Shown here in pieces: positions 20,824 to 26,668 of a stretch of DNA of 64,000 nucleotides. The stretch covers positions 1,364,001 through 1,428,000 of the forward strand of contig NC_014011.1 of the NCBI RefSeq assembly GCF_000025885.1. Reading direction: 5' to 3'. The stretch is from Aminobacterium colombiense DSM 12261 (GTDB lineage: Bacteria; Synergistota; Synergistia; Synergistales; Aminobacteriaceae). The notes under the pieces were generated by a model that saw only the letters and a list, made by a program, of their open reading frames with translations, searched no databases and had not been told where the DNA came from. A program made the position numbers and the translations under genes. The stretch's first letter is position 1. Every line of letters begins with the position of its first letter.

Positions 20824-21393
20824 TTACCACTTAAAGCGGGAAAGAAGAAGGGCCGTCCCCGCAAGGGTAATCCATAAAGAGTGTCTTTCACTTCTCCAGA
20901 CGATGGACCAGTCATAGGGTCCATGAAGACGATCCCCTGGCCAAAAAGAAGGAATAAAACGGCCTGTAGATTGACAATACGCGGAGTAGGCTTCTCCAAA
21001 TTTTTTTTCGAGGAAAGATTCTTCGTAGGGAACTATCCATACCCCATAGATAAGAAAGAATGAGGTTAGGAAAAGAGCTACAACTAACGGCCCTGCTAAT
21101 AGAGCCCATCCAAGGCCAATGAGGCCATTTCCCACATAGAGAGGGTTTCTTACAAAGGCGTAAGGGCCCCAGGTCACAAGTTGTTCTGCCCCTACTTTTT
21201 CTCCCCTGTATTTCACAATACAGCCCGAAGCCCAAAAACGTATAAGTTGACCTAACGCAACAAGAAGCAGTGACGAGACCAATCTACTCTTCTCTGGGCT
21301 AGCCAAAAGTAATATGAGGAGGTAAAGTGCCGTCCATAAACCTCCTCGCAACTTGAAGATGAGGGCACGAAGGGCATCACGCGTCATTTTCAA
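20824..21393 (-). CDS. Isoprenylcysteine/phospholipid methyltransferase-family membrane protein
   Basis: A 189-residue integral membrane protein of the ICMT/PEMT superfamily. About four hydrophobic segments are present, with the SAM-site motif GPYAFVRNPLYVGNGLIGLG (near residues 75-94) and YEESFLEKKFGEAYSAYCQST (near 121-141), both typical of the family. Bacterial members methylate membrane lipids or other hydrophobic substrates. The start is uncertain between a TTG at 21393 (GAGG five bases upstream) and the ATG at 21387. It overlaps the end of the flippase-like gene, so it is translationally coupled and likely acts on the same lipid-linked product (inference). Confidence 0.82.
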   Translation of the reverse strand: MKMTRDALRALIFKLRGGLWTALYLLILLLASPEKSRLVSSLLLVALGQLIRFWASGCIVKYRGEKVGAEQLVTWGPYAFVRNPLYVGNGLIGLGWALLAGPLVVALFLTSFFLIYGVWIVPYEESFLEKKFGEAYSAYCQSTGRFIPSFWPGDRLHGPYDWSIVWRSERHSLWITLAGTALLLSRFKW

Positions 21394-22447
21394 ACTTTCC
21401 TCTTTCTTCTATAAAGATCTGTTCGCTTACTCCCCATCCTAAAAAATGAATAGCCACAGCCGCTCCCATGCCAATTGCCAGATACTCCGTAAAAAAACGC
21501 CAGAGAATGGCCATTACCCCTGCTATATGCCAAGGGACAAGTAGTCCAAATAGAGCAGCGCCGCCGCCTTCTGCTACTCCGCTCGCCCCTGGAGTTGGAA
21601 CGAAGTAGAGTACAAACATGAACACTGCTTGGGCCATGAAGGCCTGCAAATAGTGAACAGGAAGCCCTACAGCCCAGATCAGGCAGGGCAAGACGGAGAA
21701 GAGACAAAGAAGATGAAGAGCGGAGAGAAAGACCGCCCAAATGAAATGTGGGAACCCAGACGAAAAAAAGAGGCGGAAATTTTCACTGTAATTATCTATC
21801 TCAAGATTAATCCGTCTGATAACGGCAAGAACCTTGAGACGTTTCACTATACCAAAACGTTTGAGCCAGAGGGTCAGTATTTGCCCCCATTTTTTCATAA
21901 GCTTTGGCCTCGTAAGGCTAAGAACGACCAGTATCCATGAAACCCCTACAAAAACGGCCACGTAGGTGAAGATGCTTTTTATAAAGAGACCCGTGCCCAA
22001 AAGTTCAGGTTCCAAAAGGATGGCTAGAGGCACCACTATGCCTAGCAGAAGAAGAGTAAGAAGGGTGCGGGTGAGGGTAATTGCCACTCCCTTTCCTATA
22101 GGCATATCCCTTTTATAGAGCACAAATACCTGAAAGGGCCCCCCGCCGCTTTGCATGGGCGTTACCGCACAGCCAAAGTAATGGAGCCAGGTCAAAACCA
22201 GCCCAAGACGAAAACTTATATGTTCTGAAGCTGCTTTGGCAATAGCACAAAAACGCATGGCATCACAACACCAGGCGCATATCACAAGAGCAAAGACGAG
22301 AAGCAAAACAGACTTCCGTGCTGATAACAGCATTCTGACAGTACCTTGATCCACGCTAGATACAAGAACCAAGGCGCTGACTCCAAATGTCAATGTTAAA
22401 AATATCAATAGTCCTTTTCGTAATGACACAGGAGACACACCTCTCAT
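21377..22447 (-). CDS. Lysylphosphatidylglycerol synthase TM-region (YbhN/AglD-like) membrane protein
   Basis: A 356-residue protein with about eight membrane segments of the UPF0104/LPG-synthase-TM family. The family landmark is PTPGASGVAEGG near residue 290 after a FVLYFVPT helix; the earlier GGPFQVFVLYK stretch also matches. Members transport or flip lipids or help in glycolipid assembly; none of the catalytic lysyl-transfer domain of MprF is attached. It overlaps gmhB by four bases and the methyltransferase gene by 17, placing it in the GDP-heptose operon. A role in handling a heptose-containing glycolipid is inference. Confidence 0.85.
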   Translation of the reverse strand: MRGVSPVSLRKGLLIFLTLTFGVSALVLVSSVDQGTVRMLLSARKSVLLLVFALVICAWCCDAMRFCAIAKAASEHISFRLGLVLTWLHYFGCAVTPMQSGGGPFQVFVLYKRDMPIGKGVAITLTRTLLTLLLLGIVVPLAILLEPELLGTGLFIKSIFTYVAVFVGVSWILVVLSLTRPKLMKKWGQILTLWLKRFGIVKRLKVLAVIRRINLEIDNYSENFRLFFSSGFPHFIWAVFLSALHLLCLFSVLPCLIWAVGLPVHYLQAFMAQAVFMFVLYFVPTPGASGVAEGGGAALFGLLVPWHIAGVMAILWRFFTEYLAIGMGAAVAIHFLGWGVSEQIFIEERGKFENDA

Positions 22448-23022
22448 TCAATCCCATGGACTCTTTCAATATAACATGCCGCTTCGTAGAGCCCATTTAC
22501 AACTTTTACAGACGAACACCTTCTCTCTTGCTCGAATTCAGCGCCATAACCTGTTCGCACAAGTATAAAGGGACATCCGGTGTTCTCGGCTAAAAGAAAA
22601 TCTGGCTCATTATCCCCTATGATCCAGCTTCTTTTCAAGTCTATGGAGAAATCTTCAACCGCATTAAGCACCATGTCAGGGAAAGGCTTTCGGCATCTAC
22701 ACTGCCGCCTGTAACGACCTATCGTTGCTTCCGGATGGTGCGGGCAATAATAAAAAGCATCGATAGAAGCTCCTTCTTTCTCTAATTCACGCTGTATAAA
22801 CCGGTGACTTTTTTGCACAAAGTCCTCTTCGAAATAACCTCTTGCTACACCGCTCTGGTTGGTTACCACAACGAGCAGATATCCTAATTCTTTCATTTTT
22901 TTAAGAGCTAAAGCAGCTTTAGGGATAAGCTTTATCCTTTTCAGATCGTCTAGATAAGGAACATGCTCTATCAATGTTCCGTCTCTGTCAATAAAGACAG
23001 CCGGTACCATCTTTTCTACCAT
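22444..23022 (-). CDS. gmhB: D-glycero-D-manno-heptose 1,7-bisphosphate 7-phosphatase
   Basis: A 192-residue HAD phosphatase. The nucleophile motif is FIDRDGTLIE (residues ~10-19) and motif II TNQSGVARG (~55-63). The GmhB zinc loop CPHHPEATIGRYRRQCRCRKP (Cys-His...Cys-Cys, ~92-112) is complete, and motif IV IIGDNEPDF is near 135 (GDxxxD). It removes the 7-phosphate to give heptose 1-phosphate, the substrate of the nucleotidyltransferase in the same operon. It overlaps the unknown upstream gene by seven bases. The start at 23022 has GGGAAA upstream. Confidence 0.93.
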   Translation of the reverse strand: MVEKMVPAVFIDRDGTLIEHVPYLDDLKRIKLIPKAALALKKMKELGYLLVVVTNQSGVARGYFEEDFVQKSHRFIQRELEKEGASIDAFYYCPHHPEATIGRYRRQCRCRKPFPDMVLNAVEDFSIDLKRSWIIGDNEPDFLLAENTGCPFILVRTGYGAEFEQERRCSSVKVVNGLYEAACYIERVHGIE

Positions 23023-23618
23023 GCTTTCCCATGGGCAAGGGAGCGAAGATTTTCTATATAGGAATGGAGGCCATCAAGTGATGGGTTTATTTTTTCACGT
23101 ATTATGCCGGCTGCTTCCGCATGCTTCCGTTCTTTCATAAATTCCGAAGTTCGCTCCAGACCATCTATCAAAGTTTCTCGATGCGCTTCAAACTCTTCAT
23201 CCATTCTTTCTCTCTCTTCTACCGAAAGAAGAATCTGCAATTGGTATATGGTTTCCAACTGCCAACAGATGCCTTCCACTGCATCTATCAATGCCGTCAT
23301 AGCGTCATCTGCCTGTTTTTTTTCTAAAGCGCAAGCGCTCTTATCCATAGCGTCAATTATTGTTATAAGGTATTTTTCAGAGTTTTCCAGAGATTCCATA
23401 ACAAGTTCCTGAACAGATATGCTGATAAAATTGACCATAACAATTTCTCGAAGGGCTTTAAATGCTTCCTCTTCTATAGCCACACCATCAGCCTCAATGA
23501 AGCGAAGCACTTTTCCTTCATTTGAAAGAATCTCTTTCACCTCTCTGAGCAGGTCTTCCCTATCTCTTGATTTGCTCGAACGTAAAGATACCCTTTTGTC
23601 ATCAATGGATGTAATCAA
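23016..23618 (-). CDS. Unknown helical protein inside the GDP-heptose operon
   Basis: A 200-residue soluble, strongly alpha-helical protein that I do not recognise. It has long acidic/basic heptad-like stretches (LLREVKEILSNEGKVLRFIEADG; MESLENSEKYLITIIDAMDKS; EEREMDEEF-type helices; ERTSEFMKERKHAEAAG). No nucleotide-binding loop, membrane segment or signal peptide. It occupies the slot where an HddA kinase might be expected, but it shows no GHMP kinase motif. It starts with a TTG after GGGGGG and overlaps both neighbours by a few bases, so it is surely part of the operon. Confidence 0.85.
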   Translation of the reverse strand: MITSIDDKRVSLRSSKSRDREDLLREVKEILSNEGKVLRFIEADGVAIEEEAFKALREIVMVNFISISVQELVMESLENSEKYLITIIDAMDKSACALEKKQADDAMTALIDAVEGICWQLETIYQLQILLSVEERERMDEEFEAHRETLIDGLERTSEFMKERKHAEAAGIIREKINPSLDGLHSYIENLRSLAHGKAW

Positions 23619-24598
23619 ACTTTATTCCCCCCTTCTGGTGCTTTTGAGAGTTCTGTTTTCCACCATTCGATCATGTCCTCTACGGTTTCTCTCAAAGCCC
23701 GATGAGGTTTCCAGCCTGTGTGTCTCTCTATTTTTGAAAGGTCATTCCAATAGATAAGTTCGTCTACAGATCTGACTAGAGATAAGTCCCGCACAACTTG
23801 CACCGATTTCGAACATCCTGAAAGGACGACATCAAGAAGTTGCTGCATAGATACAGCATCTGCACCGGAGATATTATAAGCTTCGCCGCCTTTCCCTTTT
23901 TCCTGAAGGGCCCAAAACCCCTCTACTGCATCGCGAACGTCGAGGAAAGCACGCTTCGTATGAAGATTGCCCACATGAAATTCCGGGCCAATAATACCAA
24001 GGTCGATCTGCGCGCGCCTTCGGGTAAAATCCGAAACAACCTCTCCAGTGCGGCGAAGCCCAACACAATTTCCAATTCTCAATCGGATAATATCCAGGCC
24101 ATGGGCATTAAAATACGTAGACCCCAGCAAGTCCTGGGCTGCTTTCGACATACCGTAGACATGAGCCGGGCGGAAGGGCTGGCTCTCTGTGACAGGAGCC
24201 TCTGAAGGGTCTATAAACCCGTATGCAGCCGTTGAAGAAGCCAGAAGTACCCGTGTTCCTCGAAGGTCGAGATGAAGCATGGCTTCAAAGAGGTTCAACG
24301 TGCCCATTACATTCGACTCAACGGTATATTCAGGTTCTTTATAGGAAACCATTGGATAACTTTGAGCCGCAAGGTGGTATACGACATGGGGACGCACTTT
24401 CTGAAGAGCGTCCTCAAGGTGGGAGCGCTGTCTGACATCAATATTGAAGAGTCCCTTCGCATAAGATGCTGGAACGCTCATATCGTTAGTAGGGCGAAAG
24501 TAAGAACCCCATACCTCACAACCTTTTTTTGCAAGAAATTCAGAGAGATGGCAGCCAATAAACCCGCCAATACCTGTAATAAAAACCCTTGTCACCAT
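23615..24598 (-). CDS. NAD-dependent epimerase/dehydratase (GDP-sugar type)
   Basis: A 327-residue extended short-chain dehydrogenase with a Rossmann GIGGFIGCHL near the N-terminus, DVRQRSHL (co-factor acid), YHLAAQSYPMVSYKEP, and the catalytic set S-S-T in LLASSTAAYG with YGMSK (Tyr-x-x-x-Lys). The YHLAAQSyp...P..T...N..GT.NL block is closest to GDP-mannose 4,6-dehydratase and GDP-6-deoxy-mannose reductase relatives. Between hddC and gmhB it probably modifies the GDP-heptose (4,6-dehydration, epimerisation or reduction). The ATG at 24598 is preferred over a GTG four codons upstream, with moderate certainty. Confidence 0.85.
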   Translation of the reverse strand: MVTRVFITGIGGFIGCHLSEFLAKKGCEVWGSYFRPTNDMSVPASYAKGLFNIDVRQRSHLEDALQKVRPHVVYHLAAQSYPMVSYKEPEYTVESNVMGTLNLFEAMLHLDLRGTRVLLASSTAAYGFIDPSEAPVTESQPFRPAHVYGMSKAAQDLLGSTYFNAHGLDIIRLRIGNCVGLRRTGEVVSDFTRRRAQIDLGIIGPEFHVGNLHTKRAFLDVRDAVEGFWALQEKGKGGEAYNISGADAVSMQQLLDVVLSGCSKSVQVVRDLSLVRSVDELIYWNDLSKIERHTGWKPHRALRETVEDMIEWWKTELSKAPEGGNKV

Positions 24599-24614
24599 TT
24601 TTATAAACACCTTC

Positions 24615-25349
24615 TTATGAGCTAAGGGAATTTATGAACTGAGGAATCTCCATCTGACTTTTTTCATAATCTTCAGGAACGCCAATATCGATAAAGTATC
24701 CCTTCGCTTCAAAAGCATATACATCCTTCCCGTCGTTAAGCAATGAGGGCAATACGTTTTTTTCCCAGGAAAGCCGCCCTTCCGGGAGAGGTTCCAATAT
24801 GGAGCGCTTTACAATATACATGCCGCCATTTACAAGCCAATGGCCATCACACCCTGCCTTTATGGAAGGGTTTCCAAAACGCAACACCCGATTCTGTTTG
24901 TCTACCTCTACTGGATCGGTTCTTTCTATGGAAGGCCATTTACGCAACGCAATGAGTACATCAGAGTCAAGTTTTCGACTCTGGTAGAACATTTGTTCTA
25001 TGTTTACGTCAAGCAATGTATCCCCATTAAGGAATAAAAAACGCTCTTTTTGAATGAGAGGAAGGGCGTACCGCAAGGCCCCTCCTTTATCAAGTGGCTT
25101 TGGCTCAAGGCTATACTCTATAGAGAGCCCCCATTTCTCGCCATTCTGGCAGTACTCAATGATTTGCTCTGATTTATATCCAAGAAGCAAGACACATTGA
25201 CCTATCCCTTTTTGTCGAAGGAAGAGGAAGAGCCAATGCAAGAAAGGTTTGCCGTCTATTGGGGCAAGGGATTTGGGACAATCTGATACGACACGTCTGA
25301 GACGCGTCCCCAGCCCACCCGCAAGGATAACAGCAAGTTCATCACCCAT
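24615..25349 (-). CDS. hddC: Heptose-1-phosphate guanylyltransferase-like nucleotidyltransferase
   Basis: A 244-residue sugar-phosphate nucleotidyltransferase: AVILAGGLGTRLRRVVSDCPKSLAPIDGKPF (nucleotide loop with PK), LLLGYKSEQI, GGALRYAL, FLFLNGDTLLDV (metal Asp) and EKNVLPSLL with YFIDIGVPEDYEKSQ at the end. The short form lacking a left-handed helix tail matches HddC/RmlA-like enzymes. With gmhA and gmhB in the operon, the parsimonious activity is GDP-D-glycero-alpha-D-manno-heptose synthesis. Its start overlaps the end of gmhA by eight bases. Confidence 0.85.
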   Translation of the reverse strand: MGDELAVILAGGLGTRLRRVVSDCPKSLAPIDGKPFLHWLFLFLRQKGIGQCVLLLGYKSEQIIEYCQNGEKWGLSIEYSLEPKPLDKGGALRYALPLIQKERFLFLNGDTLLDVNIEQMFYQSRKLDSDVLIALRKWPSIERTDPVEVDKQNRVLRFGNPSIKAGCDGHWLVNGGMYIVKRSILEPLPEGRLSWEKNVLPSLLNDGKDVYAFEAKGYFIDIGVPEDYEKSQMEIPQFINSLSS

Positions 25350-25914
25350 TGGAACAAAGGGCCTCCTCTATTAAACCGCAGATTATATGTCCCCACGTAA
25401 TGTGAAGCTCCTGAATTCGGGGGGTGTGAGACGATGGGGCTGTAAGAAGAAGAGAAGCGATCCTTGCTAAATCTCCGCCATTTTCACCAGTCATGGCTAT
25501 TGTCTCAATACCCTTCTCTTTCGCCCACGTCAGAGCTTTGACTACATTGGGACTTGCGCCGCCTGTAGAAATTCCAATAACGATGTCTCCTGGCGCGGCC
25601 AGTGCTTGCAGCTGTCTGAGAAAGATATTTTCATATCCGTAATCGTTAGCAAGGGCTGTGATAGTGCTGGGGTTTGTTGTTAATGCCACGGCTCGCAACG
25701 CTTTTCTGTTTTTTTCAAAGCGACCAACAAGTTCTGCTGCTAAATGCTGCGCATCTGCCGCTGAACCGCCATTCCCCAAAAAGAAAGCGGTTCCTCCGTG
25801 AGATAGCGCTTGTATTATCAATTGGGAAGCTGATGCCACTTTTTCTGCTAAAGATAAAGCCGCAATTTTGACGTTAATCGATTCCTGAAGTTGCTTCTGC
25901 ACTTTTTCGATCAT
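25342..25914 (-). CDS. gmhA: Sedoheptulose 7-phosphate isomerase (SIS domain)
   Basis: A 190-residue SIS-fold isomerase with the GmhA pattern: FFLGNGGSAADAQHLAAELVGRFE (residues ~45-68), LTTNPSTITALANDYGYENIF (~80-100), GISTGGASPNV (SIS loop, ~113-123) and QELHITWGHIICGLIE near the C-terminus (His of the active site). It converts sedoheptulose 7-phosphate to heptose 7-phosphate and so starts the pathway. First gene of the seven-gene operon, with GGAG nine bases before its ATG; no clear promoter was seen in the 58 bases to the response regulator gene. Confidence 0.93.
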   Translation of the reverse strand: MIEKVQKQLQESINVKIAALSLAEKVASASQLIIQALSHGGTAFFLGNGGSAADAQHLAAELVGRFEKNRKALRAVALTTNPSTITALANDYGYENIFLRQLQALAAPGDIVIGISTGGASPNVVKALTWAKEKGIETIAMTGENGGDLARIASLLLTAPSSHTPRIQELHITWGHIICGLIEEALCSNG

Positions 25915-25972
25915 GTAACCAATCTCCTCCAGCTCTTCTTCGAGGGCTATTCTACCACGTAGTGAAATAAAG

Positions 25973-26668
25973 TTACCTTTCTATAAAGGCACCCCCATTT
26001 ACTATTTGGTGCAAAGATTCAGGCTGAAGCTGGGCAAAGCCTATGCGCCACGCCAATATAGCGGCTTGGGTCCTATCGCGCAAATCAAGTTTTTTCAGGA
26101 CGTGGCTCACATGGTTTTTTACAGTTTTTTCTGAGAGAACCATTTTACTTGCCACTTCAGAATTGCTTAGGCCCTGAGCTAGCCAGTAAAGAATCTCTTT
26201 TTCTCTGGGGGTCAGTTCATAGAGCTGGTCATTTTCCTCCTTACGTCTTGAAAATGACGTTAGAAGCTTTCCTGCTACCTGGGGATCTACATAAGGCTGG
26301 TTTCGATTGGCAGATCGAATGGCTGATAATAGTTCTACCCTTCCGGATGCCTTGAGGACAAAGCCTAAAACTCCTACAGAAGAAAGGGCTGAAAGACTGT
26401 CTTCATCGTCTTTAGCACTAACGGCAACAAATTTAATGCCATGAGATAAGCTATTCAGTTCTCTGACTAATTGTATTCCATCTTTTTTGGGCATATTTAT
26501 ATCAAAAAGAAGGATATCCGGTTTTTTTTCTCGTACAACCTTAAGAGCTTCTTCTCCATCGCCAGCTTCGCCTATGACCTCAATATCGGACTCGTACTCT
26601 AATAATTTCTTTACCCCATCCCTAAAGAGTCTATGATCATCCGCTATTACAAGGCGTATAGAATCCAT
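25973..26668 (-). CDS. NarL/FixJ-family response regulator, orphan
   Basis: A 231-residue two-domain regulator. The receiver domain has acidic DD (residues 10-11), phospho-acceptor Asp in LLFDINMPKKDG (~55), Thr/Ser equivalent in FVAVSAKDDE and Lys in FVLKASG. The C-terminal LuxR-type helix-turn-helix reads LTPREKEILYWLAQGLSNSEVASKMVLSEKTVKNHVSHVLKKLDLRDRTQA. No histidine kinase is in the window. It sits 58 bases upstream of gmhA on the same strand and could be co-transcribed with the heptose operon. GGAGG precedes the ATG. Confidence 0.92.
   Translation of the reverse strand: MDSIRLVIADDHRLFRDGVKKLLEYESDIEVIGEAGDGEEALKVVREKKPDILLFDINMPKKDGIQLVRELNSLSHGIKFVAVSAKDDEDSLSALSSVGVLGFVLKASGRVELLSAIRSANRNQPYVDPQVAGKLLTSFSRRKEENDQLYELTPREKEILYWLAQGLSNSEVASKMVLSEKTVKNHVSHVLKKLDLRDRTQAAILAWRIGFAQLQPESLHQIVNGGAFIER

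Follow-up and report, generated by a model that had tools for sequence, protein, structure and literature searches.

The window analysed here, 64,000 nucleotides of the genome of Aminobacterium colombiense DSM 12261 (NC_014011.1), spans positions 1364001-1428000 of a complete assembly of one contig (G000:C1:1364001-1428000; 1,980,592 bp in all). On its minus strand lies a seven-gene operon whose family matches point to a heptose-nucleotide pathway; its content and position agree with a preliminary description of this DNA. From high to low coordinates, the genes are:

25342..25914, minus strand: gmhA, sedoheptulose-7-phosphate isomerase (SIS_2, E = 9.5e-28; TIGR00441, 9.6e-56, 188 bits against a cut-off of 209)
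24615..25349, minus strand: HddC-like sugar-1-phosphate nucleotidyltransferase (best NCBIfam match HddC, 5.2e-48; Glu82, then the Synergistota-specific Asp87-Lys88)
23615..24598 from an ATG (GTG at 24610), minus strand: short-chain dehydrogenase/reductase (SDR), kin of GDP-sugar reductases and dehydratases (GDP_Man_Dehyd, 3.3e-59; motif SSTAAYG)
23016..23618, minus strand: 200-residue helical protein (no Pfam match over cut-off; predicted C-terminal four-helix bundle)
22444..23022, minus strand: gmhB, heptose-1,7-bisphosphate 7-phosphatase (PRK08942, 1.4e-46, 158 bits against a cut-off of 178)
21377..22447, minus strand: LPG_synthase_TM/flippase-like membrane protein, here LPGtm (PF03706, 4.5e-33; TIGR00374, 2.2e-26)
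20824..21393, minus strand: PEMT/ICMT-like membrane methyltransferase, here ICMT (PEMT PF04191, 4.9e-12; LmtA TIGR04571, 52 bits against a cut-off of 325)

GmhA, HddC and GmhB miss their equivalog cut-offs, and the gene names are therefore used at family level. Adjacent genes overlap, as had been described, except for the transferase and the SDR, which are separated by 16 bp when the SDR starts at the ATG and by 4 bp when it starts at the GTG. In both congeners fetched, the operon is colinear with that of A. colombiense (protein identities 35-84%), and gmhA, hddC, gmhB, LPGtm and ICMT occur together in all ten HddC operons examined closely (that of the window and nine others; gene presence in fetched loci was scored by tblastn, and five HddC-operon loci were fetched in addition to those around the 200-residue protein). 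This colinearity and the ten complete gene sets confirm that the operon exists as more than a chance arrangement. The operon GmhB is nearest to the E. coli type, matching PDB entries 3l8e/2gmw with 124 bits and 4pnh with 64.

The preliminary description had noted that HddA, the GHMP-type kinase of the GDP-heptose pathway, is missing, and a search of the complete genome with PF00288 (GHMP) bears this out: it returned only ThrB and IspE, so the idea that HddA is encoded elsewhere in the genome was rejected. The further claim that the kinase step itself is absent has to be corrected. A PfkB search of the genome gave four matches, the best of which is a stand-alone RfaE1/HldA-type kinase of 347 residues at positions 400385-401428 of the contig, about 1 Mb from the operon. 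It scores 338 bits against RfaE domain I (TIGR02198), 7 bits below the curated cut-off of 345, and at 1e-25 a single PDB protein matches it, the ADP-branch enzyme HldA (4e84, E = 1.3e-62). RfaE2 appears to be missing from A. colombiense: there is no TIGR02199 match at 1e-15, and the PF01467 proteins are CoaD, NadD and one other, which we take to be TmcAL. An ADP-heptose route through an unlinked RfaE2 was rejected on these searches. No match to HldD (TIGR02197) was found in the genome at 1e-40, the operon SDR reaching 43.6 bits against a cut-off of 274.6. The 200-residue protein, in which the preliminary description had seen no kinase motif, was rejected as the missing heptose kinase: Pfam, NCBIfam and PDB sequence searches gave no kinase family or kinase chain (best PDB E = 0.087), and a four-helix bundle is predicted. 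In four of the five loci fetched with flanks (L010:4879-7429, which is G000:C1 near 400 kb, and L081, L082 and L083; not L084, which is from G042), the stand-alone kinase directly follows a gene that presumably encodes an acyl-CoA/AMP ligase.

The transferase matches HddC (NF049965) with 163.6 bits against a cut-off of 300, the next NCBIfam family being mannose-1-phosphate guanylyltransferase with 145; its best PDB match is HddC of Yersinia pseudotuberculosis (6jq8/5xhw, E = 9.8e-39). According to the report on HddC, Glu80 binds guanine and lies within the motif EXXPLGTGGA (PMC6981941). The equivalent Glu82 is invariant in ten of ten Synergistota transferases. The loop as a whole is not matched, with Asp-Lys replacing Gly-Thr or Gly-Asn in 15/15 Synergistota rows of the alignment (13 genomes, two entered twice); among 23 HddC-like proteins from loci with HddA, Gly-Thr or Gly-Asn occurs in 22, the remaining one reads Asp-Thr, and Lys is found in none. 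At column 175, all 15 Synergistota rows have Gly, versus Ala in 19 of the 23. In a quick tree, several branches of which are long, the Synergistota transferases lie on one side of a branch with an SH-aLRT support of 99. In the kinase alignment, conservation reaches 90% or more in the stand-alone as well as the fused group at 51 columns, and there is one diagnostic change. Because the group-specific changes sit in the transferase, versus one diagnostic change in the kinase, the transferase would be the better candidate if one of the two enzymes has switched specificity.

The best PDB matches of the SDR are a GDP-4-keto-hexulose reductase (2pk3, 2.1e-46) and the GDP-heptose 4,6-dehydratase of Campylobacter (7us5, 8.1e-36). 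All three belong to the SDR superfamily and share a VGNL...R.F.D.RD stretch; they differ in the active site, where SSTAAYG in all eight orthologues examined contrasts with SSSEVYG in 7us5 and GSSEEYG in 2pk3. The position of the dehydratase Glu, a residue we take to be catalytic in dehydratases with SSSEVYG-type motifs, is thus Ala in 8/8 orthologues and Glu in 7us5. Judged by its active site, the enzyme is not a dehydratase, contrary to the earlier assignment. Counting A. colombiense itself, 11 of the 13 HddC genomes have an orthologue, with 63-84% identity to the SDR of the window. From a scan of named genomes for more distant relatives, 80 of 211 passing proteins were kept; five are from Synergistota (two Acetomicrobium sp., Acetomicrobium hydrogeniformans, a Thermovirga and a Synergistaceae metagenome-assembled genome), and the others, 33-44% identical, come from DPANN and other archaea, Clostridia, Bacteroidota and further groups. 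Many of the relatives in HddA loci read SSAEYG. With a threshold of 70 bits for gmhA and hddC, 24 non-Synergistota loci contain both beside the SDR gene, and 23 of them also contain a GHMP-type HddA, the exception being L097; three of the 23 were used to build the hidden Markov model, leaving an independent count of 20/21. HddA was found in none of the five Synergistota loci, of which L088 and L089 end short upstream. Because of this difference (23/24 versus 0/5), the lack of HddA departs from the usual neighbourhood of this SDR. On DPANN archaeal contigs (L093-L097 and L117), gmhB, the SDR gene, gmhA and hddC lie together, with HddA in several of these loci.

The distribution of these enzymes was profiled in a sample of 149 Synergistota genomes. 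HddC-like genes were counted above 200 bits (13 genomes); matches of 92-144 bits in G003, G039, G015, G024 and G035 were left out as other transferases, and G039, G015 and G035 contain RfaE2. The thresholds for RfaE1, RfaE2 and HldD were 200, 127 and 215 bits, which gave 66, 53 and 20 of the 149 genomes, respectively. RfaE2 occurs in none of the 13 HddC genomes, even if the matches of 59-95 bits that were left out of the count are included. HldD is likewise found in none of them, with sub-cut-off matches of 144-155 bits in four (G020, G042, G055 and G086). RfaE2 is present in 0/12 RfaE1 genomes with an HddC-like gene, versus 53/54 RfaE1 genomes without one; in the one exception, G148, a contig edge cuts the sequence. 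By genus, the counts are 0/4 and 32/33, uncorrected for kinship. Kinase reading frames and a kinase tree were obtained for 45 of the 66 RfaE1 genomes. The frame ends 0-29 residues past the kinase domain in 12 stand-alone kinases and 133-191 residues past it in 33 HldE fusions, and a branch with 100/100 support splits the two types. Wherever the stand-alone kinase occurs (12 genomes), an HddC-like gene is present too and, conversely, 12 of the 13 HddC-like genomes have the kinase. Families f1 and f5 contain both types, and the pattern therefore does not simply follow the division into families.

These observations suggest that the product of the operon is probably a nucleotide-activated heptose, reached by a hybrid route that draws on both the ADP- and the GDP-heptose branch; the enzyme activities are those expected from family membership. 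GmhA would convert sedoheptulose-7-phosphate to heptose-7-phosphate, the stand-alone HldA/RfaE1-type PfkB kinase would phosphorylate C1, and GmhB would dephosphorylate C7. Heptose-1-phosphate would then be joined to a nucleotide, most likely from GTP, by the HddC-like enzyme in place of RfaE2, and the SDR may modify the sugar without dehydration. A glycosyltransferase would finally transfer the heptose to a surface glycan, most likely the lipopolysaccharide (LPS) core. A. colombiense has one match to glycosyltransferase family 9, 99 bits to heptosyltransferase I and below cut-off, in a gene cluster whose neighbours we take to encode CMP-Kdo synthetase, KdtA and O-antigen ligase; the LPS core is the likeliest acceptor because this lone match sits in what is presumably an LPS-type cluster. 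Within this sample, the proposed hybrid pathway is limited to four Synergistota genera. The beta anomer is slightly favoured, since the kinase and GmhB resemble enzymes of the ADP branch and the transferase has a group-specific loop. We tentatively put forward, at not quite an even prospect, that the HddC-fold enzyme has been re-tuned to beta-heptose-1-phosphate. The product would be an NDP-beta-heptose, its base guanine or some other, and the route would be distinct from both the ADP and the GDP pathway, with the Asp-Lys loop as the sign of the switch and the SDR in the place of HldD.

Several points weigh against the hybrid. The kinase is of the beta branch and the transferase belongs to the alpha (GDP) family, an anomer mismatch unless one of them has changed. 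The nucleotide would follow from a single conserved Glu, while the adjoining Gly-Thr or Gly-Asn is Asp-Lys here, and curated cut-offs are missed by the HddC-like enzyme and, by 7 bits, by RfaE1. In the five genomes that have both on one contig (G000, G047, G011, G020 and G019), 0.3-1.1 Mb separate the kinase gene from the operon; because of this distance, linkage does not explain the co-occurrence of RfaE1 and HddC. The co-occurrence is not made up of independent cases, as the stand-alone kinase is one lineage in four genera. Finally, G129 (80% complete) has an HddC-like gene and no RfaE1 at 200 bits, and G042 and G086 have hddC and lack the SDR orthologue.

One alternative is an ordinary GDP-alpha-heptose pathway with a replaced kinase: the alpha-1,7-bisphosphate would come from the RfaE1-type enzyme of this lineage, and the HddC-like enzyme would be a guanylyltransferase of the usual sort. 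The HddC-like enzyme and the SDR are closest to proteins of the GDP pathway, and the quick tree places the Synergistota transferases beside HddC from HddA loci. The conserved columns of the kinase, with their one diagnostic change, argue against this, as do the likeness of GmhB to the E. coli type and the location of the group-specific changes in the transferase; we regard it as a credible but rather doubtful alternative. It is unlikely that the stand-alone kinase belongs to another pathway and that an unrecognised kinase completes the heptose route. The distance of the kinase gene from the operon, and its place directly after a presumed ligase gene in 4/5 flanked loci, would fit such a role, but the nearly reciprocal occurrence of kinase and HddC-like gene (12/12 and 12/13) does not, and the GHMP and PfkB searches gave no better candidate, other kinase folds lying outside these searches.

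The two membrane proteins and the 200-residue protein bear on what the operon is for. The preliminary description had proposed a heptose glycolipid, made and methylated in the membrane; in the corresponding alternative, the glycolipid is flipped by LPGtm and methylated by ICMT. The two genes are retained in homologous operons: they close all ten HddC operons examined closely, and in 13/13 HddC genomes an ICMT-like match is no more than 4 kb away from hddC. The best NCBIfam match of ICMT is the Leptospira lipid A 1-phosphate methyltransferase LmtA (E = 7.5e-14), although 52.1 bits against a cut-off of 325 marks a distant relative only. However, among 20 loci fetched from the 67 around the 200-residue protein, 13 hold LPGtm and ICMT, nine of these without gmhA and hddC, and an ICMT-like protein is found, with one match per genome, in 132 of the 149 Synergistota genomes, only 13 of which have an HddC-like gene. 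A heptose-specific role of the pair was rejected on these counts, and the glycolipid is very unlikely. Taken as a whole, the interpretation given in the preliminary description is partly supported: it holds for the heptose-nucleotide operon, the lack of HddA, the non-kinase nature of the 200-residue protein and the retention of the last two genes, but not for the kinase step, the dehydratase or the glycolipid. LPGtm and ICMT look like an independent, widespread Synergistota envelope pair that shares the operon. The phylum-wide ICMT-like gene hints at a methylated envelope lipid, perhaps with the methyl group on a lipid A phosphate, across much of the Synergistota.

That the operon serves flagellar glycosylation is suggested by the company of the 200-residue protein. 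Its homologues occur in 67 of the 149 genomes, and FliD is present in 62/67 of these versus 42/82 of the others, with fliD within 8 kb of the protein in at least 29/67. In seven of nine HddC operons of relatives, a divergent fliD lies upstream. In L064:2825-15072, from a distant family, a flagellar and nonulosonic-acid island is found, with flaG, fliD and neuB backed by family matches. We read its order as flagellin-like, flaG, fliD, 200-residue protein, gmhB, ATP-grasp-like, NeuA-like, neuB, DegT-like, an unknown gene and LPGtm, the other names being our assumption. Against this role, two Thermovirga-genus operons lack both the 200-residue protein and a nearby fliD, and A. colombiense, in whose genome no FliD match was found, is described in its genome paper as non-motile, with an annotation without flagellar assembly genes (PMC3035294), yet the whole operon is kept. 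Given the missing FliD match and the reported lack of motility and of flagellar assembly genes, flagellin cannot be the sole acceptor in A. colombiense. We consider a flagellar purpose of the operon improbable. The 200-residue protein itself is not a kinase and most likely has a flagellar link. AlphaFold2, run with a four-row alignment, predicts the C-terminal bundle (mean pLDDT 72, the N-terminal third being poor). Foldseek gave nothing at 0.001 with this model; the top matches are chemoreceptor ligand domains, and the weak matches among those listed are only helical bundles, including the non-catalytic FAT domain of focal adhesion kinase. Between two congeners it is the fastest-evolving of nine proteins, with 50% identity versus 62-93%. 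In L060:7634-13952, from another family, the protein lies near a Polysacc_synt_2 gene, and LPGtm and ICMT are absent from the stretch fetched; the adjoining genes are presumably DegT-like and NeuB-like.

The upstream flank of the operon carries a possible trace of fliD. A LuxR-type response regulator (25973..26668, minus strand), a neighbour and no pathway enzyme, precedes gmhA by 58 bp. The two congeners each have a divergent fliD between the response regulator and gmhA (L048:3631-5670; L049:3302-5341). The same gap in the window is the 58 bp of 25915-25972, a tblastn search of the window shows no fliD, and the flanking block is colinear. The missing fliD looks like a local mark left by the loss of flagellar genes in A. 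colombiense; the genome paper calls such a loss hardly probable (PMC3035294).

Compared with the HddA-HddC pathway for GDP-heptose, the operon has the same gmhA, gmhB, HddC-family transferase and GDP-sugar-type SDR genes, and distant kin of its SDR occur within HddA-HddC clusters. It differs in the stand-alone PfkB-type RfaE1 that stands in for HddA, and in the Asp-Lys of the transferase loop. With the ADP-heptose pathway (GmhA, HldE or HldA and HldC, GmhB, HldD) it shares the HldA/RfaE1-type kinase and the E. coli-type GmhB; the differences are the lack of RfaE2/HldC and of HldD over cut-off and the use of an HddC-fold enzyme for nucleotidyl transfer. The two branches are described as separate in PMC4691232, and in the Campylobacter GDP branch, according to PMC10680097, HddA is used and GmhB is shared, its gene lying in the LPS cluster. 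We found no report of a mixed heptose pathway in the literature searched, nor of the mixed route in searches on lipid A or heptose in Synergistota; these covered mostly titles and the openings of abstracts, with subscription journals largely outside.

For annotation, the case is a warning that a missing hddA need not mean a dead pathway. A natural hybrid, if true, would mean that kinase and transferase are exchangeable between the branches, and it would help to locate where the choice of anomer happens. Since ADP-heptose is an agonist of ALPK1, such a hybrid would also be relevant to the set of heptose nucleotides available for release from a bacterium.

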